The notes under the pieces are model-generated. The model had not been told where the DNA came from. It made no database searches and saw only the letters and a list, made by a program, of their open reading frames with translations. Positions 2,205 through 63,480 of a DNA stretch of 64,000 nucleotides are shown in pieces (position 1 is the first letter of the stretch; each line of letters starts with the position of its first letter). The translations under genes and the position numbers were made by a program. Origin of the DNA: Flavobacteriales bacterium (lineage in GTDB: Bacteria; Bacteroidota; Bacteroidia; Flavobacteriales_D; Sanyastnellaceae); the NCBI GenBank assembly GCA_022447625.1, contig JAKVAX010000002.1:1-64000 (forward strand), given 5' to 3'.

Positions 2205-3998
2205 ATGAAGATCGAAGAAAAAACCACCCAAGAAACGCAACAAGTAACAAGCCTAAACGAGCAACTGATCGATGCTCGTAAGAAATCACTCGCTGAGCAG
2301 CAAGCCACTGAAGGAACTTCAGAAGGATTTGCTTGGTTGAATGAAGAAAGCCGAAAATTCCTACACGCTGGTTACCTATCTCCAGGAGTGTCGGCTGAAC
2401 AACGCATTCGCGAAATCGCTGAACGTGCTGAGACTATTCTCGGTATGCCTGGATTTGCAGATAAATTCTACGGATACATGTCTGAAGGATTCTACTCATT
2501 GGCTAGCCCAGTGTGGTCGAACTTCGGAAAAGAACGCGGTCTTCCAATCAGCTGCTTCGGATCACATATCGATGATGACATCGGTAACATCCTTTATACG
2601 CAGTCGGAGGTGGGTATGATGTCTAAACTAGGCGGAGGTACTTCAGGGTTCTTCGGCAAGATCCGTCACCGTGGTGCGGCTATAAAGAACAATGGTGAAG
2701 CTTCTGGTGCAGTTCATATCATGCGTTTGTTCGAATCAATGGTAGACGTAGTAAGCCAGGGATCTGTGCGTCGTGGTCGATTCTCACCATACCTGCCAAT
2801 CGAACACAAAGACATCATGGAGTTCTTGGAACTCGGTACCGAAGGGAATGCGATCCAAGAGTTGACTCACGGTGTTACGGTGACGAACAGGTGGATGGAA
2901 GAGATGATCGAAGGTGACACTGAAAAGCGCGCTATTTGGGCGAAAGTTCTTCAGCGTCGAGGAGAAATGGGTTACCCTTACATCTTCTTCACTGACAACG
3001 CAAACAACAACGCCGCAGACGTATACCAAGACAAGAATCTTCCGATCTACGCAAGTAACCTGTGTACGGAGATCATGCTTCCTTCAAGTCAGAACTGGTC
3101 GTTCGTTTGTGTACTCTCAAGCATCAACGTGCTCGAGTATGACAAGTGGAAAGACACAGACGCGGTTCAAACAATGATTTACTTCCTAGATGCGATCATC
3201 ACTGAATTCCTTGAAAAACTAGAATCATACCGCGATTCTGCTGACAACGATGACCGTCAGACATTCCTCTTCATGGAGCGCGCTTACAATTTCGCGAAGG
3301 AGAACCGCGCACTTGGAATGGGAGTACTCGGGTGGCACTCACTACTTCAATCGAAAATGTTGGCATTCAACAGCCAAGAAGCATACGACTTGAACAGCAC
3401 AATCTTCAAGACAATCAAAGAACGCTCTTACCAAGCCTCTGAAGAACTTGCAGCACGTTTCGGCGAGCCTGAATTATTGAAAGGATACGGACGTCGTAAT
3501 GCGACATTGAATGCCGTAGCACCAACGACATCATCAGCATTCATTCTCGGACAAGTATCTCAAGGAATTGAGCCGATCTGGTCGAACATCTACGTGAAAG
3601 ACATCGCGAAGATCAAGACCACGATCAAGAATAAGTTCCTTGTAAACCTTCTTCAGGAAAAAGGAATGGATACTCCAGAAGTATGGAAAGACATCCTTAA
3701 GCACGACGGTTCAGTACAGCACGTAGAATTCTTGACTCAAGAAGAAAAAGATGTATTCAAGACCTACTCTGAAATCGATCAGATGGATATCGTTTACCAA
3801 GCGGCTAACCGTCAAAACCATATCGATCAAGGTCAGTCTGTAAATATCATCGTTCACCCTGATATGCCGGTAAAAGAGATTAACAAAATCCATGTTACTG
3901 CTTGGAAACTCGGGTTGAAATCACTCTACTACCAACATAGCATGAACGCTGCACAGAAATTCAAACAGAAGAAAGAGTGTGTAAGCTGCGAAGCTTAG
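2205..3998 (+). CDS. nrdA: ribonucleoside-diphosphate reductase large (catalytic) subunit, without ATP-cone
   Basis: This cytoplasmic subunit reduces ribonucleoside diphosphates to deoxyribonucleotides using a radical received from NrdB. At 597 residues it is shorter than E. coli NrdA because the N-terminal ATP-cone is absent; that domain is on the NrdB encoded just upstream. Catalytic residues are all visible: the redox pair C117 (P-I-S-C-F-G) and C302 (F-V-C-V-L), the thiyl C287 with N285 and E289 (N-L-C-T-E), the radical-relay tyrosines Y575-Y576, and the C-terminal C592-V-S-C595 pair that re-reduces the active site. The cone exchange matches the NrdB-cone type characterised in Leeuwenhoekiella blandensis, where dATP inhibits through oligomerisation of NrdB. 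It is co-transcribed with nrdB, followed by a strong terminator, and its own stop codon is TAG. Confidence 0.95.
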   Translation: MKIEEKTTQETQQVTSLNEQLIDARKKSLAEQQATEGTSEGFAWLNEESRKFLHAGYLSPGVSAEQRIREIAERAETILGMPGFADKFYGYMSEGFYSLASPVWSNFGKERGLPISCFGSHIDDDIGNILYTQSEVGMMSKLGGGTSGFFGKIRHRGAAIKNNGEASGAVHIMRLFESMVDVVSQGSVRRGRFSPYLPIEHKDIMEFLELGTEGNAIQELTHGVTVTNRWMEEMIEGDTEKRAIWAKVLQRRGEMGYPYIFFTDNANNNAADVYQDKNLPIYASNLCTEIMLPSSQNWSFVCVLSSINVLEYDKWKDTDAVQTMIYFLDAIITEFLEKLESYRDSADNDDRQTFLFMERAYNFAKENRALGMGVLGWHSLLQSKMLAFNSQEAYDLNSTIFKTIKERSYQASEELAARFGEPELLKGYGRRNATLNAVAPTTSSAFILGQVSQGIEPIWSNIYVKDIAKIKTTIKNKFLVNLLQEKGMDTPEVWKDILKHDGSVQHVEFLTQEEKDVFKTYSEIDQMDIVYQAANRQNHIDQGQSVNIIVHPDMPVKEINKIHVTAWKLGLKSLYYQHSMNAAQKFKQKKECVSCEA

Positions 3999-6899: not shown

Positions 6900-9800
6900 A
6901 TGAAAAACCTTACACTAACCACCTTCTTAATTCTGCTGTCCTTCACCTTCTTCGGGCAGCCTTATGTTACCACTTGGCAATCAGATCTAGTCCTCAACCC
7001 CTATGTTCCCGTCGATAATACAATCACGATCCTCACAGATTCACTATTAACTTATAATTACACGGTGGACTGGGGAGATGGGACTCAGGATACCAACATA
7101 ACTGGCAACTTCACGCATGCATATTCGAGTGCAGGGACATATACCATCAGTATTACCGGAGTTTTTCCAAGGCTCGCAGTTCCATCTATCGATGGCAATA
7201 AGCTTCTATCTGTTGACCAATGGGGAGGCAATCAATGGACATCCATGGCAGAAATGTTCCGATCTTGCCCTAACTTAAACATTCTTGCAACGGACACGCC
7301 TGACCTGTCCGCATGTACTTCTATGGATTACATGTTTCAACACTGCAGCAATCTCGATTTTGACCCTGGTAATTGGGATGTTTCTAATATTGAAACCTTT
7401 CTTGGAACCTTCTTTGGATGCACGTTATTTGATGCTGATTTGTCTTCGTGGCAAACTTCCAATGCAACGGTCATGGCAGCAATGTTCACTAATGCAGAAA
7501 ATTTCAACCAAGACATGAATAACTGGGATGTTTCTAACGTAGAATATACGTTGTTGATGTTCGCCGGGTGTTCTTCGCTAAATCAATCGTTCGAAGGTTG
7601 GGACATATCATCAGTGCAAGACATGAGCGATATGTTCTGGGATACAGCGATTTCTATTCCCAACTATGACCAAACTCTCTTGGCATGGGGAGATCCCAGT
7701 AATACAGTACAACCCAATGTCCATTTGGATTTTCCGGCGAACTATTGTCTAGGCGATGTTGCACGCCAAAACCTTATAAACAACTTTGGCTGGACCATTA
7801 ATGACTATGGTCAAGATTGTTCAGTAAGCGGATGCATCGAAGAAACAGCCTGTAACTACGACATAACCGCTGCTTTAGATGATGGTTCCTGCGAATTCAC
7901 GATTGATGCCTGTGGCGTATGCGGCGGAACAGCAACCGTGGCCGGATGTACAGATTCTGCCGCTTGTAATTTCGATCCAGCCGCAGATTGTGACGATGCC
8001 AGTTGTGACTACAGCTGTGGATTTATCTCTACTTGGCAGACCAACGCAAATAATGAAAGCATTACGATCCCAACCAATGGTGGAGGATACGATTACAGTG
8101 TAGACTGGGGTGATGGAACAATAACCACCGGCAACACAGGGGATGCAACACACTTCTATACCAATAGCGGGCAGCACACCATTAAAATCACCGGTGATTT
8201 CCCTCGCATCTATTTCTGGTTGCAGTCTGGTGCTTTTAAAATCCACGAAATCAACCAGTGGGGTACTATCCAATGGCAAACATTATCCTACGCCTTTGCG
8301 GGCTGCTATAATCTGGATGTTCTCGCTACAGATGCCCCTGATTTATCGATGGTTACAGAAGTCGATTACGCCTTCTACCAAACAAACATTCAAACGCCTG
8401 ACCTATCGAATTGGAATGTCAGTAACGTGACTGACATGACGTATATGTTTGCTTCTTGCTCCAATTTCACCGGAAATATCAGCTCTTGGGATGTGAGTTC
8501 CCTAGAAAATGCATTTGGCATGTTTCAAGGAGCAATCTATTTCAACGGAGATCTATCTGCATGGGATCTGAGCTCGGTTATTAACCTGAGAGCTATGTTT
8601 AAAAACTGCTCCAGTTTCAATGCCGACATATCAGGTTGGGATGTAAGTTCAGTGACGGATATGAACGCCATGTTTGATGGAGCGAGCTCTTTCAATCAAG
8701 ATCTGAACAACTGGGATGTAAGTTCAGTGACGGAAATGGGCTCCATGTTTGATGGAGCGATCTCGTTCAATCAAGATCTGAACAACTGGGATGTAAGTTC
8801 AGTGACGGATATGAACTACATGTTTAGTGATGCGAGCTCGTTCAATCAAGATCTCAATAACTGGAACGTTTCCTCTTTAGAAGGCATGTCGTTGATGTTC
8901 TATGGGGCAAGTAGCTTTCAAGGCGCCATTTACAATTGGGACATTAACTCTCTTACACTCGGAAACAACGTCTTCCTGAACTCTGGGATCATTCAGGAAA
9001 ACTATGATCTTATTCTAACCCATTGGTCGCAACTTCCTGCGGTGCCAAACGGAATTAGTCTCGGCCAAGTACCTTCATTTTATTGTCAGGGGGCAAGTGG
9101 AAGGGATGTGCTCATCAACACCCATGGATGGAGCATCATTGACTTTGGAAACAATTGTCCTGGGTGCACCGACCCCGCTGCTTGCAATTACGATTCTGAA
9201 GCGGCCGTTGACGATGGGAGTTGCACATTTGTCACTGATGCTTGCGGTATCTGTGGAGGTACAGGTACCATTGCCGGATGCACAGATCCTGCCGCCTGTA
9301 ACTACGATTCGTCTGCAGACTGCGACGATGCCAGTTGCGATTACGGCTGTGGATTCATTACCACTTGGCAAACCACAAGCGACAACGAAAGTATCACGAT
9401 ACCAACTTTTGGTGGAGGGTACGCTTATAGTGTAGACTGGGGAGATGGAACCATAACAACAGGTCATACAGGGAACGCCACTCATACATACGCAACCAGC
9501 GGCACACACACTATTAAGCTTGCCGGGGATTTCCCCCGCATCTTTTTCTTCTTGGCATCCAGTGCCTCGAAAATCTACGAGATCAACCAGTGGGGTAATA
9601 TAGAATGGCAGTCATTTACATTGGCCTTTTTCAACTGCTCAAATCTTGATGTTCTCGCTACAGACGCCCCAGATTTATCAATGGTTTCGAAGATGAATGA
9701 CGCGTTCACAGGCACAAATATTCAGTCCCCAGATTTATCAAATTGGGATGTGAGTTCGGTGACGGAAATGCTTAAAATGTTCAGTAATTGCACCAATTTC

Positions 9801-53682: not shown

Positions 53683-56600
53683 TTACTCCTTCACAACCCG
53701 CTGAAATCCAGCACCTAAAATCTCTATTAGGTACATTCCTGAAGCACGATTGCTCAGGTCAATGGCTGTGCTTCGTTGTACTATACCTTGATCTACTAGT
53801 CGTCCTGCGAGGTCTCGTACTTCATAGCTTTGTCCGAAGAGTTGAACTGGGGTGTTTAAGAAGAACTGTCCTGTACTTGGGTTCGGGAATACGGTGAATT
53901 GAAGCTTCTCAATTTCTGATACGCTCACGTTGTCATCAAGTAAGTTCACATTGTCGATCCACGTGTGGTTTCCGTAGCCTCCGATATTGGCGAAGGCTAG
54001 CTCAACACATGATTCTCCAGACAACATGCTCAAATCAACAGAATCTGTTCTCCATACGAGCTCACCACCAAGGTCATACCAGAACCATACGTAGCAGTCT
54101 TCAACAGTCAGGTCGTCTCCAAATTTCGAGTATACTGGTGTCCATTCTCCTGCATCAACACGATACCAGAGCTCTAGTCCGTCTTCATAATCTGCATATT
54201 TCACATGAGCTACATCAAAATGAATGAGCGGTGACGCTACGTCAGTAAAGTCCATTGCTGGCATCACCAAGAGATCAGCCAAGCCTTGCGTATCCACCCA
54301 GTAGTTCGGGAATTGAGCAACACCATTTGAGGCGTCATCGAGCTGCACTGCCGGTTCCCATGTTCCTAGTCCGCTGGTTTCTAGTTTCCAGTTCTCAGGA
54401 GGGAAGATCTCTCCATTAAAATCTTCTACCGCTGGCATTGGAACACCTTCACTAATGACCGTGATCATGTCTTCCCAGGTATAGCTTGCGCTATTGCCTT
54501 CTTCGTCTGTGACCATCAAGCTGACATCGTAAGTACCAGGAGTGTTCCACATAGCCATGGCATTGTAGCCTTCTGATCCAGATTCAACGGCTCCTTCAAA
54601 CGTCCAATCATAGGAAGCTTCAGCACAGCGTAACACGCTGTTGTCTGTGAAGCGGATAGTATCTAGTGCACATTGCAGTGCCAAGTTCACCTCGAGCTTA
54701 TTCGCCGTGAAACCAACTTGCAGCGCTGAAGGCGTGTAGAAATCGTTCTGGTGAACGCTTCGAGAGCCAGCGCAACGCACCTTTCCTTCGCAGTAGTTGG
54801 TTTGAAGGAAGACAACAGGCGTGCGTGCTGGAAGGTTATTTGCGTACAGCTCCCATGAATCCATCGTGTTGTCTTTGTAATACACTGAATGGTCTGAGCC
54901 GAGGTACAAACCTCCGTCCGTTCCTCGCTGGTGAGCGATGGCTGTGATGTACACATTGTTGATCACCTCGTCACCGATATCTTGCCAAGTGTCACCTGCA
55001 TCCGATGATGAAAAGACCTTGTTTCCCGATTGACCACCCAGCAAAATAGCCCATAGTTGATCAGGGTTCTCCCCATCTACATCAATGTAAATAGCCTTGT
55101 TGCTGTTGTTGCCGTTTTCTATTGAGGTCATGCTCACATCTTCCCAATTCTCTCCGCCGTCAGAAGTCCGCCAGATCTTCCAGTTACTTCCGCTCTGTCT
55201 GTGGGTCACGTAGATACGATTCGGGTCGCGCGGTGCGACCTTCACGTGAATGATCTTGTCACCCCCGAAGTTGTTGAGCTCAGTCCAACCTGAACCTCCG
55301 TTGGTGCTCTTCCATAGTGATGACCCATTTGGTGAGTACATGATGTTGTAGCATCTCGGGTCCCATTCCATGTTACCGTATTCGCCCCACCAGTAGCTGG
55401 TGTTGGCTGCCTTGCTATTGTCAAATGGCAACCCGCTGATACGTTCAAAACGCTCTTCTGTATATTTAAACGCGCCACCATCGTGGTAACCAATGGTTGC
55501 GTCTCCCGGATTCACAAATCCTCGGAAGTTATCGCCGGCTAGCTCTGCCAGCCAGCCTCCTGATGTTTCGTCTTCAGCTCCCCAATAGTAAAGATCACCG
55601 TTGCGGATATGTGTTCCGTTATGGTAGGTACCCCCTACCATGACATCACCCTCTTTGATTCCTGATTGCCATCCCCAGAAGTCAGTACCGTGAATTCCGT
55701 ACATGCGTGGTTCGAGGTTGTCTCCCTGGTCTGCGCTGTAGTAGAGTCCACCGTCCGAAGCGACCCACATGTCCACGCCGTTTTCTGTTGAGAAGAACTT
55801 GACATCGTGTACGTCGGCGTGGCTGTATCGCTCTGCGGTAAATTCGCCTGCCCAGGTCACCCAATGGGCATTCAATGACCAATTTGATCCGTAGTCTAGC
55901 GATCTCCACACGTTAATTCCTGCTCCGAAAAGACGTCCTTCTTGATCTGGAGAAACATCTAGGGCGAGGTCATAGTAGAATTGTCCTCCATCTCCGGTTC
56001 CGTCTTCGCTCCAGCCTAGAATATTTGGGTTGCTTCCTGCAGCCCAAGCTCCGCCAGGTCCGCTCCCGCAACATTGGAATTCAAAGTTTTCTCCTTGGTC
56101 TTGGCTTCGGTAGATTCCGAATAAACCGTTTCCACCATCCGCTGCTCCACTGGCTAGGATGTAGATGTCATCTGGATGAAGTGGTGTTACCGCCATCTCG
56201 ATCCGGCGTTGTTCTTCTCCTGAGTTTGGAGTTGGCCAACCTGTGGTTCCAGAGGTCCATGTGTTTCCTCCGTCGGTAGACTTTTTGAATAGCGTGTTGT
56301 TTCCTACGAGCGATGCAGAATACACCGTTTCTGGATTTGTGGGGTGGAACTCGATCTCCATGTGTTCTCCAGAAGATGCGGTATTCCAGTTGGCTCCTGC
56401 GTCTTCGCTGACGAACAAGCCCCCGTTTGTTGCTGCCAACAAGGTGTTGGCGTTATCTGGCTTGATCTTCAAGTCACGAACCCAATTGTTTTGCCCTTGG
56501 AAGTTCGCGTCTCCAGTGAGTGTCCATGTTGCACCACCATCTGTGGTTTTGTAGATCTTTCCGTTCCCTTCACCGAAATAGACAATGTCCGTGTTGTTCG

Positions 56601-57162
56601 GGTCGATGGCAATACTGTAAACACTAGTTACAAGAAGCTCACGCGACATCAACTCCCAGTGCATTCCTTTGTCTACGGATTTCCAAATTCCCGCGGTAGC
56701 GGAACCAGCCCAAACAACGTCTGGATTCGCTGGAGCTTGTTCAACCGTGTAGATGTGACAAGCCCCTGGAGATTGCACTTGAAAGTACATCGCCACTTCA
56801 GGATCATAATGCCATGGGCCCATTTCTTCCCATTCACCGTTTTCACGATTCTGAGATTGGTAGCGCTCCATATATTCTTGCTGATCGCGGAAATCCATTG
56901 CCGGTGCTCCTTGCGGGTTGCCCGTGGCTTGGATGTTCCGCAGCCAACGCTTGTAGTACTGCGTATGCTGGTTCTTTACTAAAGGATGTGAGGCGTAATA
57001 GGCGTCATGCGCTGCTCGAACCTCAGAAGGCTCGGCATTACTGTACATCAGCTGCACCCATTCAGGGTCTGTAGACGAAGCTTTGTATTCAGTTTGTGGC
57101 ACTAGCTGAGCATTACCATAGAAGGCAAGGCACACAGCCATGATCGAAAGAAAGTGACGCAT
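53683..57162 (-). CDS. large sortilin/BNR-repeat exported protein with PKD domain and type A T9SS tail
   Basis: This 1159-residue protein has a signal peptide (1-18). A VPS10/sortilin-like beta-propeller (about 125-790) shows repeated Asp-box motifs such as S-x-D-x-G-x-x-W and K-T-T-D-G-G-A-T-W. A PKD domain (about 805-890), a lectin- or MAM-like beta domain (about 905-1075) and a Por secretion tail (about 1085-1159; V-F-P-N-P-S-T-G-Q-F) follow. Such proteins are common type IX cargo of Bacteroidota; the binding partner or glycan is unknown. It is a single gene, convergent with the beta-helix gene, and carries a one-insertion variant of the 13-bp motif at 56688. Confidence 0.88.
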   Translation of the reverse strand: MRHFLSIMAVCLAFYGNAQLVPQTEYKASSTDPEWVQLMYSNAEPSEVRAAHDAYYASHPLVKNQHTQYYKRWLRNIQATGNPQGAPAMDFRDQQEYMERYQSQNRENGEWEEMGPWHYDPEVAMYFQVQSPGACHIYTVEQAPANPDVVWAGSATAGIWKSVDKGMHWELMSRELLVTSVYSIAIDPNNTDIVYFGEGNGKIYKTTDGGATWTLTGDANFQGQNNWVRDLKIKPDNANTLLAATNGGLFVSEDAGANWNTASSGEHMEIEFHPTNPETVYSASLVGNNTLFKKSTDGGNTWTSGTTGWPTPNSGEEQRRIEMAVTPLHPDDIYILASGAADGGNGLFGIYRSQDQGENFEFQCCGSGPGGAWAAGSNPNILGWSEDGTGDGGQFYYDLALDVSPDQEGRLFGAGINVWRSLDYGSNWSLNAHWVTWAGEFTAERYSHADVHDVKFFSTENGVDMWVASDGGLYYSADQGDNLEPRMYGIHGTDFWGWQSGIKEGDVMVGGTYHNGTHIRNGDLYYWGAEDETSGGWLAELAGDNFRGFVNPGDATIGYHDGGAFKYTEERFERISGLPFDNSKAANTSYWWGEYGNMEWDPRCYNIMYSPNGSSLWKSTNGGSGWTELNNFGGDKIIHVKVAPRDPNRIYVTHRQSGSNWKIWRTSDGGENWEDVSMTSIENGNNSNKAIYIDVDGENPDQLWAILLGGQSGNKVFSSSDAGDTWQDIGDEVINNVYITAIAHQRGTDGGLYLGSDHSVYYKDNTMDSWELYANNLPARTPVVFLQTNYCEGKVRCAGSRSVHQNDFYTPSALQVGFTANKLEVNLALQCALDTIRFTDNSVLRCAEASYDWTFEGAVESGSEGYNAMAMWNTPGTYDVSLMVTDEEGNSASYTWEDMITVISEGVPMPAVEDFNGEIFPPENWKLETSGLGTWEPAVQLDDASNGVAQFPNYWVDTQGLADLLVMPAMDFTDVASPLIHFDVAHVKYADYEDGLELWYRVDAGEWTPVYSKFGDDLTVEDCYVWFWYDLGGELVWRTDSVDLSMLSGESCVELAFANIGGYGNHTWIDNVNLLDDNVSVSEIEKLQFTVFPNPSTGQFFLNTPVQLFGQSYEVRDLAGRLVDQGIVQRSTAIDLSNRASGMYLIEILGAGFQRVVKE

Positions 57163-57200: not shown

Positions 57201-57569
57201 TCAGACAGAAGCAGGGTGAGATATCTTTCCTCTTCGAATGAGGTTCATCTCAACTCGCTGAGGTCGAAGGATTTCAGCGATAATGTCTTCTACTTGTTCC
57301 GGGTCGAATTCAGCACACGAGAACAGGTCAATTGCGGCATAAGCACGCTCTGGCCAGGTGTGAATACTTAAATGACTTTCAGAAAGTAGGTAGACCCCTG
57401 TAACACCAACAGGCTCAAACTGTTTGTAGGAAGCGTTAAGCACAGATAGGTTAAGTCGTTCGGCGATAGCCTCTAACAACGGTTCTACCGAATTGCGGTA
57501 AGAGATGATGTCTGGATCCACTCCAAACACATCCCAAATTCCATGAAATCCTAATGCTTGCTCCTTCAC
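57201..57569 (-). CDS. speD: S-adenosylmethionine decarboxylase proenzyme
   Basis: This 122-residue prokaryotic-type enzyme makes decarboxylated AdoMet, the aminopropyl donor for spermidine. It cleaves itself at E64-S65 (L-S-E-S-H-L-S-I-H-T-W-P-E) to create the pyruvoyl cofactor; the proton-relay residues H70 and C85 align with Thermotoga AdoMetDC H68 and C83. The start is a GTG at 57569. It lies 15 bases downstream of an unknown lipoprotein gene and close to the membrane SpeE-like gene, forming a polyamine-centred locus with the ATP-grasp ligase at 60268. Confidence 0.93.
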   Translation of the reverse strand: MKEQALGFHGIWDVFGVDPDIISYRNSVEPLLEAIAERLNLSVLNASYKQFEPVGVTGVYLLSESHLSIHTWPERAYAAIDLFSCAEFDPEQVEDIIAEILRPQRVEMNLIRRGKISHPASV

Positions 57570-57584
57570 GTCCGAAAAGATGGC

Positions 57585-58106
57585 TTATTCTGCCATCATC
57601 ATCATAAGGAACTCCTCTTCGTCAGCAAGTTTGAGGAGAGACGCATAGCTTTCAGAAGCGTCGACTTCGATGACTTCAGGAGTTGTTTCACGTGGACCGT
57701 AATCCCACTCGATTGGGTTGACCAATTCACCGATCACTTTGTAAGGACCGTCGAACTCCATTCCTAGGAAGTTCACCGTCTGTTCTGGGATAGAAGATGT
57801 TGCAAAAGCACCCATCGTGCCGTAAATTTCTTCGTACATGATGTACTCTGAGTATGATGGGTTCATCATGTACATATCTTGCACAAAGTCGAACTCAATA
57901 GGCTCTTCACCTGGAACCGTAATTACGTGAACACCGTGACCCATTTCAATCCATGCAACATCACGTGGAGGAATCTCCACGTTCAATGAGTCGATTGAAA
58001 CTTCGATATAGTCATTTGTTGGGTTGTCAACTGCTACAGCAACAAGGTCGGGACCACAAGAAGCGAGTCCAACAGCAACAAAGAGGAAAAGAATAATTCG
58101 GTTCAT
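57585..58106 (-). CDS. unknown lipoprotein co-transcribed with speD
   Basis: This 173-residue predicted lipoprotein has lipobox L-A-S-C17. I do not recognise a family. The mature part has a compact beta-rich stretch (about 20-75; D-N-P-T-N-D-Y-I-E-V-S-I-D and I-P-P-R-D-V-A-W-I), resembling a small C2- or DUF-type beta sandwich, followed by an acidic helical tail with Met-rich end (F-L-M-M-M-M-A-E). A TAAATTTG element sits directly upstream, so it heads the speD operon. Its position between speE- and speD-like genes suggests a role in the same polyamine pathway at the envelope, perhaps as an acceptor or a binding protein; this is inference. Confidence 0.75.
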   Translation of the reverse strand: MNRIILFLFVAVGLASCGPDLVAVAVDNPTNDYIEVSIDSLNVEIPPRDVAWIEMGHGVHVITVPGEEPIEFDFVQDMYMMNPSYSEYIMYEEIYGTMGAFATSSIPEQTVNFLGMEFDGPYKVIGELVNPIEWDYGPRETTPEVIEVDASESYASLLKLADEEEFLMMMMAE

Positions 58107-58110
58107 CGGT

Positions 58111-58118
58111 CAAATTTA
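58111..58118 (-). promoter_or_regulatory. candidate -7 promoter element TAAATTTG
   Basis: On the minus strand this ends 4 bases before the ATG at 58106, making the lipoprotein-speD transcript leaderless or nearly so. It separates that operon from the speE-like gene. Confidence 0.55.
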
Positions 58119-58169
58119 ATCGCAAGCAATATAGATAAATTGCCTATGTCCGCGCGTTAAAGGCGGCAA

Positions 58170-59702
58170 TTAATGTGTTTGACCAGGTTGTGTTTGGAAT
58201 TCGGTCTTCCACTTGTTCCAATCATGGAGGTAATAATCCAAAATGATCGGGTGATCAAGCGAATTGGTTTGCACGTCTTTGATTGGAACGTCAGGCGGTA
58301 ACTTGAATAAGTGCTGCACGAGCTCGGTGTCTAAATACTCCACTCCTTCCACGGCTGTGAAGTTTCTCAGCTGGTGTAGATTATTGTTCTTACAAGCCAT
58401 AATGAATCCCCAGTCGCCAAAAGAAGGTACGTTCGAATGGTAGGCCGTTACGTTTTCAAAAGCTTCTTCCATCGTTCGATAGATGCAGCTGAAAACGCTG
58501 TTTGCAAAGTAGATCTCACCTGCTTGGGTCACAAATACCCCGTCTTTCTTTAAAAGGTTATTCGCCAGAAAATAGAACTGACGACTGTATAACTTCGCTA
58601 AGCTTTGATCGCTCGGGTCGGGAAGGTCTGCGATAATAACATCATATCTCTCCTCGTTTTGCACAAGATAGGTGAAGGCATCCCCTTGAATCAACTTCAC
58701 TCGAGGATCACTCGCTGCCCCTTCATTGATCGTGACCAAGAAGGGATTGGTCTTCGCCAAATGAAAGATCATGGTGTCAATGTCAACCACATGTACCTCT
58801 TGAATATTCGCATGTTTCAATGCCTCGCGGCTCGCTAGATTCTCTCCACCACCAAGAATAAGCACACGTTCAACGTCTCCCTTCAATGCAATAGGAACGT
58901 GTACCAACGGCTCGTGATAACGGTGTTCGTCTTTGGATGAAAACTGGATAATGCGATTGAGGTACAAACGCAGGTCGTCTTCCTTCTGCGTCAATACAAT
59001 CTTTTGGTACGGCGTCTGCTCGTTATATACGATGGGGTGCTTGTAGATCTTCTGATCCCAGACCTGCAAGAGATGTGATGCTTTATAGGTAAGTCCTCCT
59101 AATACTATCAGTGCCGTAACCCCTAAAACCATGCCTCTTCGCTGTTCGCGGAAATGGACATAATTCAACACCAAGCCCAGAATAATATTCAAAGCGCCAA
59201 ACATCAGCGAAGAATAAAAGAGCCCTACAAACGGAAGAAGAATAAAGGGGAATACAAGGGTTGCCAATAAACCTCCGATATAGTCTAGTGACAAGATCTT
59301 CGAAAGTGAATCTTTGAGGCTGTCGTTGTCAGAATAGGTCAACAGCGGGACTTCCATCCCTGTAAGGAAGCCGATCAAAAAGACAATCCCGAGGCAGAAA
59401 AGCTGCAAACTTTGGGGACTAACCGTTACAAAGAGCCAATAAACAAGGGGTACAGATATTCCGCCAATGAGTCCTAATAGGTATTCAATACGCACGAAAT
59501 ACATCAGCGATCTTCCTGAGTGAAATTTCGAAACATAGGCTCCAATACCCATTGAAAAAAGGTAGACACCAATAACGATTGAGAACTGCTTCACACCGTC
59601 TCCTAAAAAATAGGTTGCGGCCGTGCTAATCAAGAGCTCATAAACGATCGAACAGAGGCCGGCAATAAAGACAGAAGCTGAAAAAAGAATTTTATTTCCC
59701 AA
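58170..59702 (-). CDS. membrane-fused spermidine synthase-like protein
   Basis: This 510-residue protein has about seven membrane segments (about 5-205) followed by a cytoplasmic spermidine synthase domain (about 225-470). The nucleotide-binding loop reads L-I-L-G-G-G-E-N-L, with Glu where SpeE has Asp (G-G-G-D-G), and the catalytic region reads V-I-I-A-D-L-P-D-P-S, keeping both aspartates. Members of this TM-SpeE group occur beside SpeD-like genes; whether they make spermidine or another aminopropyl product is not settled by sequence. No ATG is in frame; translation must start at TTG 59702, preceded by an in-frame stop. It is divergent from the lipoprotein/ATP-grasp pair across 45 bases. Confidence 0.85.
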   Translation of the reverse strand: MGNKILFSASVFIAGLCSIVYELLISTAATYFLGDGVKQFSIVIGVYLFSMGIGAYVSKFHSGRSLMYFVRIEYLLGLIGGISVPLVYWLFVTVSPQSLQLFCLGIVFLIGFLTGMEVPLLTYSDNDSLKDSLSKILSLDYIGGLLATLVFPFILLPFVGLFYSSLMFGALNIILGLVLNYVHFREQRRGMVLGVTALIVLGGLTYKASHLLQVWDQKIYKHPIVYNEQTPYQKIVLTQKEDDLRLYLNRIIQFSSKDEHRYHEPLVHVPIALKGDVERVLILGGGENLASREALKHANIQEVHVVDIDTMIFHLAKTNPFLVTINEGAASDPRVKLIQGDAFTYLVQNEERYDVIIADLPDPSDQSLAKLYSRQFYFLANNLLKKDGVFVTQAGEIYFANSVFSCIYRTMEEAFENVTAYHSNVPSFGDWGFIMACKNNNLHQLRNFTAVEGVEYLDTELVQHLFKLPPDVPIKDVQTNSLDHPIILDYYLHDWNKWKTEFQTQPGQTH

Positions 59703-59712
59703 CGGATTAGGC

Positions 59713-59720
59713 TAAGTTTG
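59713..59720 (+). promoter_or_regulatory. candidate -7 promoter element TAAGTTTG
   Basis: This TAnnTTTG match is 27 bases upstream of the ATG at 59748. It drives the lipoprotein/ATP-grasp pair from the 45-bp divergent spacer. Confidence 0.55.
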
Positions 59721-59747
59721 AATTCGTTGAAACAGACACGACCAAAG

Positions 59748-60299
59748 ATGACTAAATTTCCTTCAACACGCCTATTTGGCCTCTCAATGGTTTTCGCACT
59801 AGGTATTACCCTGACCCTCAGCGGCTGTGCTGAAGATGACGGGCACCCTCGTCTGATGGAATACGATGAGAAAACTGTACACGAAAGCACGAAAGGAGTC
59901 GAAACTGAACTCGAGGAGCAAGAGCCCGGTGGCGAATACCTCATTCTTGATGAGCGCATGATCGATGAAAAAGAAGATTCTCGCGCTATCGTTCACAACC
60001 TTGATGGAACTGCAGACACACTGTCTTTTTCGAGCCTTGCGAACGACGACGGTTCAAACCCTCGTTACTCACCAATGCGTGCCGTATTGATGTTTGGTCT
60101 TGCTCGTTCATTCTTCAACCCGAACATGGGGAATGTTCGTCCTGATCCTAGCTACTACAAAACGCCTGGTGCCTACAACAAGTCTGCTGGTCTTCGTGAA
60201 GACATGATGTCTTCATCACGTACACGCAGCGTGCGCACTCCAAAAGGATCTTCTAAAGGATACGGAGGTGGAAAGTCGTTCCGTTCTTCTGGAGGATGA
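59748..60299 (+). CDS. lipoprotein with Ser/Gly-rich tail ending in Gly-Gly (YgiB-like arrangement)
   Basis: This 183-residue predicted lipoprotein has lipobox T-L-S-G-C27. The mature chain is acidic at first (about 28-90), then carries a Met/Phe stretch (M-R-A-V-L-M-F-G-L-A-R) and a basic, Ser/Gly-rich tail ending K-S-F-R-S-S-G-G. The layout - lipobox, Ser/Gly tail, adjacent glutathionylspermidine synthetase-like gene - resembles E. coli ygiB (DUF1190) next to ygiC, though I cannot confirm homology. The ligase gene starts inside its last 32 bases. A free C-terminal glycine is what the ligase family amidates in glutathione, so this tail is a candidate acceptor. ATG 59748 is chosen because the TTG at 59718 lies inside the promoter. 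Confidence 0.8.
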   Translation: MTKFPSTRLFGLSMVFALGITLTLSGCAEDDGHPRLMEYDEKTVHESTKGVETELEEQEPGGEYLILDERMIDEKEDSRAIVHNLDGTADTLSFSSLANDDGSNPRYSPMRAVLMFGLARSFFNPNMGNVRPDPSYYKTPGAYNKSAGLREDMMSSSRTRSVRTPKGSSKGYGGGKSFRSSGG

Positions 60300-61452
60300 T
60301 CGCTTTCGCGAAGTCCGCCTTCCAAAGAAAAAACACATCCCAGCAAAACTGCACTGGTTCCTCGGTGAGGAGTACTTCAGTGGAGAATTGTTGAGCGTAT
60401 ACCCGAGTGAAGTGCGTGCTTTTAAGGCGGTTGCCGAAGAAGCGTTCGATATCTTCCTCAAAGCTACTGATCACATTATCGAGCACAAGGGCCTCGAAGC
60501 TCTTGGCATCCCCGCACTATTTCACCCAGTCATTGAATACACTTGGAAAAACCGAGATAGACACTCCTTTCTGTTAGGGCGTTTCGATATCAATGGAGTA
60601 TTTGATCGTGTCAAAGGAAAGGTCATTGAGTTCAACGCCGACACAATGAGTTCGATTCGGGAAACCATAAAGTGGCAGGAATTCCAGCGCAAGCAACTCG
60701 GAGAAAACGAATATCAATTCAACGAGCTCGCCATTCGTTTAGAGCAACAGCTTCGCACGATTCGCAGTCGTTTCCCTGGAGAAGAGTCTAACCTCACCGG
60801 AAGTTCATTTGGATATATTGAAGACCAACTCAACATTGACGCGGTTATGGAACAGGCTTACAAAGCTGGGTTCCTCGTTCAAAATATTGACGTGCCTGAA
60901 ATTATCTTCTCAGAAGAAGGTGTCTTTTACGAAGCAGGTAGCGAATACCAACGCGTAGACGTCTGGTACAAAATGGCCCCGTGGGACTGGACCTTCAACG
61001 AAGAGCCTGGGTTGGCGCAAATCTTGTCAGACCTCATCATGAATGAGTTGGTGTTGGTGCTTAACCCTCCTTACACTGCGATCTGGCAGAACAAACGCTT
61101 CCTTGCATACATCACAGAGCACTTCCCGAATGACGTCATTGCCAAGACATACTTGGAGCGACCAACAGATATGCGTGAAGGACTGGTAGAGAAGCCAATC
61201 TATGGCCGAATCGGTGAGAACATCGTACTTCACGATCCTGATGGTGACCTGCAACGTAGTCAAGGCGACTTCGGCGATCAGCCAAAGATTTATCAAGAAT
61301 ATCTACCGCTAGCCGTTGATGAAGAAAAACACTACTACCAAGCTGGTGTTTTCATGTGCGACGGCCCTGCAGCACTCAATTTACGTTGTCAAGAGTCTAA
61401 GATCATGACAGACGACTGTGAGTTTATGTCACACGTCATTTCAGAGTACTAG
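60268..61452 (+). CDS. glutathionylspermidine synthetase-like ATP-grasp ligase (YgiC/YjfC type)
   Basis: This 394-residue cytoplasmic protein belongs to the GSP_synth group of ATP-grasp carboxylate-amine ligases, which join a glycine carboxylate to a polyamine amine. Key blocks are visible: L-L-G-R-F-D-I-N-G, V-I-E-F-N-A-D-T-M-S-S (about 105-135), Y-K-M-A-P-W-D-W-T-F (about 232-241), L-V-E-K-P-I-Y-G-R-I-G-E-N-I-V (about 308-322) and Y-Q-E-Y-L-P-L. It lacks the amidase domain of E. coli Gss. It starts with GTG 60268 within the lipoprotein gene (32-base overlap), so expression is coupled to it. The SpeD and SpeE-like genes nearby suggest a polyamine co-substrate; the carboxylate acceptor may be the lipoprotein or a peptide. 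Confidence 0.87.
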   Translation: MESRSVLLEDDRFREVRLPKKKHIPAKLHWFLGEEYFSGELLSVYPSEVRAFKAVAEEAFDIFLKATDHIIEHKGLEALGIPALFHPVIEYTWKNRDRHSFLLGRFDINGVFDRVKGKVIEFNADTMSSIRETIKWQEFQRKQLGENEYQFNELAIRLEQQLRTIRSRFPGEESNLTGSSFGYIEDQLNIDAVMEQAYKAGFLVQNIDVPEIIFSEEGVFYEAGSEYQRVDVWYKMAPWDWTFNEEPGLAQILSDLIMNELVLVLNPPYTAIWQNKRFLAYITEHFPNDVIAKTYLERPTDMREGLVEKPIYGRIGENIVLHDPDGDLQRSQGDFGDQPKIYQEYLPLAVDEEKHYYQAGVFMCDGPAALNLRCQESKIMTDDCEFMSHVISEY

Positions 61453-61578: not shown

Positions 61579-63480
61579 ATGAGCGACGCAATCAAGCACG
61601 AATGTGGTATCGCGCTTCTGAAATTGAAGCAACCACTGTCTTATTACCGTCAGAAGTACGGCACTTCTTTTTACGGCCTAAATAAAATGTATCTCCTGAT
61701 GGAGAAACAGCACAACCGCGGTCAAGATGGCGCGGGATTGGCCAACATCAAACTTGACGTAGCACCCGGACAACGATACATCTCCCGAATGCGATCAAAC
61801 AATGATCGCCCGATTCAAGATGTGTTTGCACGTGTGAATGCACGCTTCAAGGATCTAGAGGAGAAAGCCCCTGACAAGTTGAACGAAGTAGCATACCTGA
61901 AAGAGAATTTCGGATTCACCGGTGAGGTATTCCTCGGACATCTTCGCTACGGAACCTTTGGAAAGAACTCCATTGAGAGTATTCACCCTTTCCTCCGTCA
62001 GAATAATTGGATGACCAGAAACCTTGTGGTAGCTGGAAACTTCAACTTGACGAACGTTGACGAACTCTTCGGTCAACTTGTTGAGCTTGGTCAACACCCA
62101 AAAGAGAAAGCAGACACAGTCACCGTGATGGAGAAGATCGGGCACTTTCTCGATGAGGAGAACGAGCGCCTGTTCCGCATCTACAAAGATCAAGGGTATG
62201 CTAACGATAAGATCTCACGCCTCATCGCTCAGAACATGGATGTGGCGGAAATTCTGCGACGCTCAGCTGACAAGTGGGACGGTGGGTACGCCATGGCCGG
62301 AATGATGGGCCACGGTGACGCTTTTGTATTGAGAGATCCAAGTGGAATTCGTCCGGCTTACTGGTACGAAGACGACGAAATCGTTGTTGTCGCCAGCGAA
62401 CGCCCGGTGATCCAGACAGCTTTCAATGTACCTATGGAAAAAGTGCAAGAAATCGACCCAGGACACGCCTTGATCATTCGTAAAGACAACCGTGTTTCGA
62501 TTGATCAGATCCGCGAACCGTTAGAGCGCAAAGCATGTAGTTTCGAGCGCATCTATTTCTCACGAGGAAGCGACTACTCGATCTACTCTGAGCGTAAAGA
62601 GCTTGGTCGCCTTGTGGTGCCAAAGACCCTGGAGGCCGTAGACCACGACCTTGAAAACTCCGTGTTTAGCTTTATTCCTAATACCGCTGAGACTTCATTC
62701 TACGGTATGGTAAAAGGACTAGAAGACTACCTTAATCAATGGAAGTTTGACGAAATCCGTAAGGAAGGGGAAGGCATCTCTGCTGAACGCCTTGAGAAAT
62801 TGATTTCTGTGCGTCCTCGAGTAGAGAAGATTGCTATTAAAGACGCCAAGCTTCGTACCTTCATCACGCAGGATGATGCGCGGGATGACATGGTTGCTCA
62901 CGTATACGATATTACCTACGGAACGGTCAAAAAAGGCACTGATAACCTCGTGGTTATCGATGACTCTATTGTTCGTGGAACGACACTCAAGAAGTCGATC
63001 ATCCGCATCCTTGACCGTCTTGGGCCTAAGCGTATTATCGTGGTGTCAAGTGCACCTCAAATTCGCTACCCTGACTGCTACGGTATCGATATGGCTAGGA
63101 TGGGTGATTTTATTGCGTTCCAAGCTGCGATTTCCCTCTTGAAAAAGCACAGCAACGAAGGTTTGATTGACTCTGTTTACCGCAAGTGTAAGGAGCAGGA
63201 GAACCTTCCGAAAGAACAGGTTAAGAACTACGTGCAAGAGATCTACGAGCCGTTCACAGACGAGCAGATTAGCGACGAAATTTCTGAATTGCTCACCCCA
63301 AAGAACATTAATGCCGAAGTGAAAATCATCTACCAAAGTGTAGACAATTTGCACCAAGCATGTCCTGGAAACTTGGGTGATTGGTACTTCACAGGAAACT
63401 ACCCAACCCCAGGAGGAAATAAGGTAGTCAACCGCGCATTCATTTACTACGTAGAAGGACGAAACGAGCGCGCCTACTAA
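61579..63480 (+). CDS. amidophosphoribosyltransferase-family protein (PurF-like, class II glutamine amidotransferase)
   Basis: This 633-residue enzyme combines an N-terminal class II glutamine amidotransferase domain with a phosphoribosyltransferase domain. The nucleophile is C9 (H-E-C-G-I), exposed after removal of a short propeptide. R-G-Q-D-G-A-G and G-H-L-R-Y-G-T mark the glutaminase. The PRPP-binding motif is L-V-V-I-D-D-S-I-V-R-G-T-T (about 456-468). PurF makes phosphoribosylamine in the first step of purine synthesis. It is about 130 residues longer than typical PurF, with insertions between glutaminase and transferase parts and a C-terminal extension, as in a second PurF-like type of Flavobacteria; whether it serves purine synthesis or a related reaction is uncertain. 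Confidence 0.88.
   Translation: MSDAIKHECGIALLKLKQPLSYYRQKYGTSFYGLNKMYLLMEKQHNRGQDGAGLANIKLDVAPGQRYISRMRSNNDRPIQDVFARVNARFKDLEEKAPDKLNEVAYLKENFGFTGEVFLGHLRYGTFGKNSIESIHPFLRQNNWMTRNLVVAGNFNLTNVDELFGQLVELGQHPKEKADTVTVMEKIGHFLDEENERLFRIYKDQGYANDKISRLIAQNMDVAEILRRSADKWDGGYAMAGMMGHGDAFVLRDPSGIRPAYWYEDDEIVVVASERPVIQTAFNVPMEKVQEIDPGHALIIRKDNRVSIDQIREPLERKACSFERIYFSRGSDYSIYSERKELGRLVVPKTLEAVDHDLENSVFSFIPNTAETSFYGMVKGLEDYLNQWKFDEIRKEGEGISAERLEKLISVRPRVEKIAIKDAKLRTFITQDDARDDMVAHVYDITYGTVKKGTDNLVVIDDSIVRGTTLKKSIIRILDRLGPKRIIVVSSAPQIRYPDCYGIDMARMGDFIAFQAAISLLKKHSNEGLIDSVYRKCKEQENLPKEQVKNYVQEIYEPFTDEQISDEISELLTPKNINAEVKIIYQSVDNLHQACPGNLGDWYFTGNYPTPGGNKVVNRAFIYYVEGRNERAY

Follow-up and report, generated by a model that had tools for sequence, protein, structure and literature searches.

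ATP-grasp enzymes of the glutathionylspermidine synthetase family link spermidine to a glycine carboxylate through an amide bond. Two E. coli members, YgiC and YjfC, bear the RefSeq name "peptide--spermidine ligase", the apparent source of which is a study by Pederick et al. in Biochemistry from 2023, whose title reportedly assigns peptide-spermidine ligase activity to both enzymes. An earlier note on the DNA considered here had called the chemistry of such ligases not established, which is out of date since this title reports the activity. The two enzymes were also termed "recently characterized bacterial peptidylpolyamine synthetases" in the accessible part of a further publication (PMC12568646), and C-terminal polyaminylation is a largely known idea that had in part been foreshadowed in publications. 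None of the open-licence literature searched names the acceptor that YgiC-type peptide-spermidine ligases use in vivo. Here, a five-gene locus is described that lies in a stretch of 64,000 nucleotides (nt) from a Flavobacteriales bacterium (contig JAKVAX010000002.1, positions 1-64,000; assembly GCA_022447625.1), called the window in the following. The locus encodes an ATP-grasp ligase, two lipoproteins and two polyamine enzymes and is probably a protein-polyamination module of YgiB/YgiC-like type with its own spermidine supply.

Related operons were described by Ravi et al. (2024; PMC11237479). In the accessible text of that paper, PspA-CesT/Tir operons contain an ATP-grasp peptide ligase, DUF1190, DUF350 and DUF2491. 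The membrane spermidine synthase operon and the ATP-grasp/DUF1190 operon are treated there as separate PspA-linked groups, with S-adenosylmethionine (AdoMet) decarboxylase appearing in variants. An earlier study of the linkages of this decarboxylase (Li et al., 2019) is said to have seen the association with ATP-grasp enzymes.

The features of the locus are the following:

57201..57569, minus strand: speD, S-adenosylmethionine decarboxylase proenzyme, 122 amino acids (aa) (PF02675, 7.8e-32; TIGR03330; PDB alignments)
57585..58106, minus strand: lipB, second lipoprotein, 173 aa, lipobox LASC, predicted beta sandwich (open reading frame, ORF; AlphaFold)
58170..59702, minus strand: speE-like membrane aminopropyltransferase, 510 aa, with a hydrophobic N-terminal part and a spermidine-synthase domain at residues 259-441 (NF002956; PF01564, 1.2e-39)
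59748..60299, plus strand: lipA, lipoprotein and proposed acceptor, 183 aa, lipobox LSGC, Gly/Ser/Arg-rich tail ...GGGKSFRSSGG (ORF; homologues)
60268 (GTG) or 60289 (CTG)..61452, plus strand: ATP-grasp ligase of the GSP_synth family, YgiC/YjfC-like, 394 aa (PF03738; PDB match)

The five genes named in the earlier note were all found as ORFs at these coordinates. On the minus strand the order of transcription is SpeE-like, LipB, SpeD, and on the plus strand LipA is followed by the ligase. Family profiles (AdoMet_dc, NF002956 and GSP_synth) bore out the identities of SpeD, the SpeE-like enzyme and the ligase that had been read from the sequence. LipA and LipB had no family match above its cut-off in the profile searches of the window proteins.

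For the analysis of gene linkage, 18 module loci were compared, comprising the window, its genus-mate G412 (L057), 14 named relatives from Winogradskyella, Aquimarina, Cellulophaga and a Saprospiraceae (L041-L054) and two loci that both belong to one other genus (L058, L059). Every locus was found through the ligase, so that its presence in the 18 is not independent evidence. SpeD, SpeE, LipA and the ligase occur together in 17 loci, and the remaining one (L050) ends at a contig edge. Counted by gene, SpeD and LipA are present in 18/18 (LipA partial in L050), SpeE in 17/18 and LipB in 16/18 (not in L058 and L059). Three gene orders were found: SpeD−, LipB−, SpeE−, LipA+, ligase+ in the window and L057; SpeE−, LipA+, ligase+, SpeD−, LipB− in L041-L054 (L050 without SpeE); and SpeD−, ligase−, LipA−, SpeE+ in L058 and L059. 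One extra ORF separates the ligase and SpeD in L044, L045 and L049. Since the same genes adjoin in three different orders, the arrangement goes beyond chance, and the module is real and conserved.

A genome carrying LipB with the same flanking genes as in Winogradskyella (G226) lacks the SpeE-LipA-ligase-SpeD block. Locus L044 and G226 can be aligned as far as position 3904 and from position 8237 onwards, and in G226 these points are 18 bases apart. No match to the ligase, SpeD or Spermine_synth was found in the G226 genome at an E-value of 0.001. The absence of the block in this one genome is either a loss or an ancestral absence.

The orphan LipB of G226 (L097, 8376-8918) is changed at four sites that are invariant in 15 aligned module LipBs, including W to R and G to P. 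This corresponds to 4 of 32 otherwise invariant sites, compared with 0-2 in 13 of the 15 others, 9/41 in the window and 16/48 in L054. Relaxed constraint on the orphan was considered and is a hint from one case, as the window and L054 deviate too.

The ligase matches GSP_synth (PF03738) with 222.5 bits (cut-off 29.3; E 1.3e-65) over model positions 18-371 of 371. Its top PDB matches are E. coli YgiC (7uk8, 8.1e-18) and YjfC (7uk6); trypanothione synthetase and glutathionylspermidine synthetase/amidase rank below these two as solved relatives. An alignment of 24 ligases, the two E. coli enzymes being part of it, has 23 invariant columns, which include R105, D107, E121, N123, K309 and R314. The R-x-D ... 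E-x-N pattern is presumably the magnesium and substrate binder of the synthetase. As the window ligase branches outside the YgiC/YjfC group in the trees, it represents a sister type to these enzymes. The module ligases, with SpeD and SpeE adjacent, form one clade with a support of 100/99 in a tree containing 14 of the 18 and of 100/100 in a tree containing 17 of the 18, from which long-branched rows were removed (L054, L072, L073 and L074); long branches were flagged in both trees. Judging from these similarities, the ligase would join spermidine to a peptide carboxylate, as YgiC and YjfC reportedly do.

An identity as bifunctional glutathionylspermidine synthetase/amidase was rejected, since the model score was 86 bits and its cut-off is 882, and no amidase domain was found in the ligase, for which GSP_synth is the sole Pfam match. 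Related to this is the view that the ligase makes a small-molecule conjugate (glutathionylspermidine-like or another peptide-polyamine amide) and that the lipoproteins are unrelated envelope-stress partners. The family is named after glutathionylspermidine synthase and the ligase domain does match trypanothione synthetase and the E. coli synthetase/amidase; the best match to the bifunctional model, however, covers no more than positions 474-615 of 619, and the Gly/Ser/Arg-rich, small-ended tail described below accompanies the ligase across phyla, in proteins that were partly hand-picked. In addition, YgiC is listed without synthetase activity in a table of PMC12506659, in its accessible part, citing Sui et al. 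(2012). We consider a small-molecule product improbable.

The C-terminus of LipA was found to be Gly-Gly in all 18 module loci. The rows L041-L054 were first drawn with a Gly-Gly filter, and after relisting without it the count was still 18/18. In an alignment of 14 sequences, 9 of the 13 tail columns are invariant compared with 33 of the 143 columns of the mature body (Fisher p 0.001).

The ligase gene overlaps lipA, as the earlier note had reported, and this holds under either start. What has to be corrected is the start codon, the position of which is uncertain. A GTG at 60268 gives an overlap of 32 nt; the position at which relatives have a TTG or ATG start is a CTG in the window (60289-60291) and gives an overlap of 11 nt. 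This start-like TTG/ATG/CTG is followed by G-N-G-GAT and overlaps the lipA codons for (F/Y/S)-G-G-stop. Within 27 bases of the overlap in 16 loci, 9 bases vary, which are distributed as 2, 2 and 5 over the LipA codon positions and as 2, 5 and 2 over those of the ligase. This pattern points to a constraint on the LipA frame. The GGAGGA itself is invariant across the 16 loci.

Among the lipoproteins next to proteobacterial ligases, 6 of the 7 annotated DUF1190 proteins end with Gly-Gly, and none of these genes has such an overlap. They are E. coli YgiB and YjfM and the proteins of Rhizobium, Sulfitobacter, Pseudomonas fluorescens and P. psychrotolerans, while that of Asticcacaulis ends CG; the E. 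coli products end ...SRSMGG or ...RGHWGG. Three more proteobacterial neighbours (total rows n=10) end with Gly-Gly, namely an unnamed gene directly upstream in Acinetobacter and the proteins of Paracoccus and Indioceanicola. The latter two were found by a tail-seeking script in records that lack annotation, for which reason only the 7 DUF1190 rows are a fair count. For plasmid sources, 12 regions were fetched from 158 and 139 matched records. No lipoprotein counterpart was found in the Halomonas, Arthrobacter and Azospirillum regions, and a Paraburkholderia downstream protein ending GGG was excluded from the counts.

As background, a Gly-Gly end was found in 5 of 1282 other mechanical ORFs of at least 100 aa, many of which are not genes. 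Outside the LipA family, 7 ORFs longer than 150 aa end with Gly-Gly, 5 of which adjoin a ligase. LipA homologues of the families f9 and f10 have this end in 4 of 6 cases. A motif G-(F/Y/W)-(G/F) within the last 40 residues is present in 48 of 52 ligase neighbours and in 54 of the 1282 other ORFs, and the last residue is G, S or A in 51/52 compared with 275/1282; some of the 52 neighbours were chosen for their tails.

Further tail-bearing proteins were observed. The LipA homologues of L058 (11648-12241, minus strand) and L059 (11037-11624, minus strand) have a hydrophobic start in place of the lipobox cysteine, and their tail is still RSYGG. In the loci L077-L089, most of the diverged ligases adjoin a protein of some 460 aa, whose start is twin-arginine-like (e.g., RREANLRLAKLG) and whose tail reads, for instance, GSFGRSGGF. 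Weak matches to DUF350 (YjfL) lie close by in 8 of these loci. By eye, a gene of L077 and L080 resembles PspA, although phmmer with YjfJ gave no match.

LipA was tried as a member of DUF1190 (PF06693) and rejected, with no match for the window protein and 13.3 bits for the homologue of L060 (cut-off 22). Kinship with YgiB was likewise rejected by profile comparison (probability 2.0%; 2.9% for a bridging set against YgiB and YjfM). LipA is homologous to lipoproteins of the f9/f10 ligase genomes (profile comparison, 99.5%), most of which adjoin the ligase. Acidic residues follow its cysteine (CAEDDG in the window, likewise in most module relatives), a stretch which we take to resemble the surface-export signal of Bacteroidota lipoproteins. 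The AlphaFold model of LipA has a pLDDT of 37.5, which is too low for use. For LipB, a beta sandwich was modelled with a pLDDT of 79. Its structural matches were the PepT1 extracellular domain (Z 7.9), an AlgF domain (7.8) and the lipoprotein TssJ1 (6.4); as these Z-scores are not above those of unrelated models according to the search tool's own note, no function was read from them. Foldseek with the LipB model gave no match at an E-value of 0.001.

Next, the polyamine enzymes were analyzed. SpeD matches TIGR03330 with 109.8 bits (cut-off 75.65), and its pyruvoyl serine region is kept (SESHLSIHTWPE, aligned to PDB 2iii and 1tlu over the ESH(L/I)(S/T)IHTWPE stretch). The SpeE-like protein reaches 541.4 bits with NF002956, the model of membrane polyamine aminopropyltransferases (cut-off 472), and its motifs GGGE and DLPDP are invariant in 13 aligned sequences including the window. 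Since residues 2-184 form a succession of hydrophobic segments, the enzyme is very probably membrane-embedded, in agreement with the earlier note.

The genome of the window has one SpeD and one Spermine_synth match, both at this locus. No nspC match was found in it, which argues against a carboxyspermidine route. Elsewhere in the genome, a gene for an arginine decarboxylase-like enzyme, which at 178 bits misses the equivalog cut-off of 369, overlaps an agmatinase gene (197 bits, above the cut-off of 174), so that putrescine is probably available. Two agmatine deiminase-like (PAD_porph) domains were also seen in large proteins on the contigs C7 and C23 of the same genome (L092, L093); as their starts look signal-peptide-like, these proteins probably do not take part in cytoplasmic polyamine synthesis.

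The membrane type of SpeE would suit a different role, in which SpeD and SpeE aminopropylate a target other than putrescine, independently of polyamines, whether a lipid, some protein or the very lipoprotein that is tagged. This is very doubtful in our estimate, given that the catalytic motifs resemble those of ordinary aminopropyltransferases and that a putrescine source is probably present.

In a phylum-wide search, the ligase was found in 32 and SpeD in 80 of 395 genomes, which we assign to Bacteroidota on account of a Por secretion tail in a window protein and of the named relatives of the ligase. Both are shared by 5 genomes (G000, G064, G158, G166 and G096) compared with 6.5 expected by chance, and phylum-wide co-occurrence was dropped as support. 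In a sample of the order (n=100), SpeD is present in both ligase genomes, yet also in 34 of the 98 others. Spermine_synth was searched in 34 genomes, namely the 32 ligase genomes, G226 and G412; matches at E 0.001 were found in 11 and matches above 100 bits in 6, the latter being exactly the genomes having SpeD. SpeD and SpeE adjoin the ligase in only 3 of the 32 ligase genomes. Most ligases of the family thus have no adjacent SpeD/SpeE pair or none at all, which makes the module one clade's variant.

Several of these results weigh against a polyamination module with LipA as acceptor. The co-occurrence that the earlier note had proposed to look for holds for the four core genes and, in 16 of 18 loci, for LipB, whereas for SpeD and the ligase it stays at chance level and direct adjacency is rare across the phylum. 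LipB persists in G226 without the other genes and is therefore not strictly tied to the module. The conserved Gly-Gly that had been expected at the lipoprotein C-terminus is present throughout the module, but its conservation could also stem from the ligase start region, which lies over the same codons, and this weakens it as independent proof. Furthermore, none of 8 lipoproteins encoded immediately before YgiC-like ligases in Bacteroidota ends with Gly-Gly (the ends are SS, HA or GS; the count takes the directly upstream gene and includes the later-added L069, ending SS). Of the exported-looking proteins beside the most diverged ligases, 4 of 10 have a Gly-Gly end and 6 do not; these were chosen by looking next to the ligase for an ORF with a tail of this kind, omitting L076, L084 and L088, in which none was seen, and L078, which is cut. 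The DUF1190 model misses LipA. Gene content, linkage, motifs, the conserved tail and the missing block of G226 are observations, and the chemical steps, including the modification of LipA, as well as the identity of the polyamine are inferred from homology. Finally, SpeD and SpeE may simply feed the polyamine pool of the cell.

This last point can be widened to a full alternative, namely that SpeD and SpeE are the ordinary cellular spermidine supply, that the ligase tags LipA and that the genes adjoin through shared regulation or joint inheritance. Being the only SpeD and SpeE of the genome, the two enzymes must also serve general needs for aminopropyl chemistry. In G166 and G096 they lie near each other at about 2 Mb and 12 kb, respectively, from the ligase, and the phylum shows no enrichment of the SpeD/ligase pair. 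On the other hand, the linkage is kept through three gene orders, and G226 is without all four genes jointly, with no SpeD or Spermine_synth match left. We regard ordinary supply as rather unlikely.

Taking the locus as a protein-polyamination module, the following order of events is proposed from the predicted protein functions. SpeD would provide decarboxylated AdoMet, from which the membrane-bound SpeE would form spermidine or a close polyamine at the membrane, using putrescine from the arginine decarboxylase-like enzyme and agmatinase encoded elsewhere in the genome. The ligase, co-made with LipA, would activate the C-terminal glycine carboxylate of LipA and link it as an amide to an amine of the polyamine. 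Tagged LipA would then be exported, giving the envelope a lipoprotein whose tail is strongly cationic, and LipB may act as an accessory envelope lipoprotein. The difficulty in topology remains that the acceptor must be modified before export; tagging could precede export because the ligase gene overlaps lipA. A stronger version, which is tentative, states that SpeD and the membrane SpeE form a dedicated pathway that mainly supplies the polyamine end of one lipoprotein, and that the Gly/Arg-rich, small-ended tail is a general acceptor tag in several phyla.

If LipA does carry a polyamine at its C-terminus, bacteria would have a protein modification that is fed by a dedicated supply line and may influence the charge of the envelope, and this would help to explain why SpeD and membrane spermidine synthases adjoin lipoproteins. 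The locus offers a compact prediction with one ligase, one tail and one polyamine source, and the carriers of the module include relatives from Winogradskyella and Cellulophaga, some of them named strains.

Two neighbouring genes of the window were also observed. At 61579-63480 (plus strand), a protein of 633 aa resembles a divergent PurF and matches class II glutamine amidotransferase and phosphoribosyltransferase only weakly. Just beyond speD, a gene at 53683-57162 (minus strand) encodes a large protein that matches Sortilin-Vps10 and PKD and carries a Por secretion tail.

In comparison with known systems, the locus shares the ATP-grasp domain with glutathionylspermidine synthetase/amidase and trypanothione synthetase. 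The similarity to these enzymes is weaker than to YgiC/YjfC, no amidase part was matched and the acceptor would be the tail of a protein. In eukaryotes, conjugates of SUMO and ubiquitin with spermidine carry the polyamine on the C-terminal Gly-Gly carboxylate of a protein, according to the accessible part of PMC12270671, which gives a mass increase of +127.15 Da for SUMO-spermidine. These are made by E1/E2 enzymes instead of an ATP-grasp ligase, and no common ancestry is implied.

The PspA-CesT/Tir operons, as far as the accessible text of Ravi et al. (2024) describes them, resemble the window locus in the GSP synthetase-like ATP-grasp enzyme with a lipoprotein, in the AdoMet decarboxylase of some variants and in the membrane-fused spermidine synthase, although the latter belongs to another operon group. 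In the window, the membrane synthase and the ATP-grasp enzyme share one locus, and no PspA homologue was found. The Yjf/PspA operon type was not recovered either, as YjfI, YjfJ (PspA), YjfK and YjfL (DUF350) were unmatched among the window ORFs (phmmer, E 0.01). The combination without PspA is not among the groups in the accessible text of Ravi et al. (2024), and Li et al. (2019) may hold it.

The closest systems are YgiB/YgiC and YjfM/YjfC of E. coli, which have the same ligase family and the nearest solved relatives. Both E. coli ligase genes directly follow a DUF1190 lipoprotein gene, and the tails of YgiB and YjfM likewise end GG and contain an Arg conserved in all of 23 aligned proteins. 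Unlike YgiB and YjfM, LipA is missed by the DUF1190 model and shows no kinship with YgiB in the profile comparison, and the window ligase groups apart from YgiC and YjfC in the tree. SpeD and SpeE belong to the window locus, which is a further difference from the E. coli systems. Judged by these likenesses, the module most likely works like YgiB/YgiC, and its new part is the polyamine supply beside one likely acceptor.

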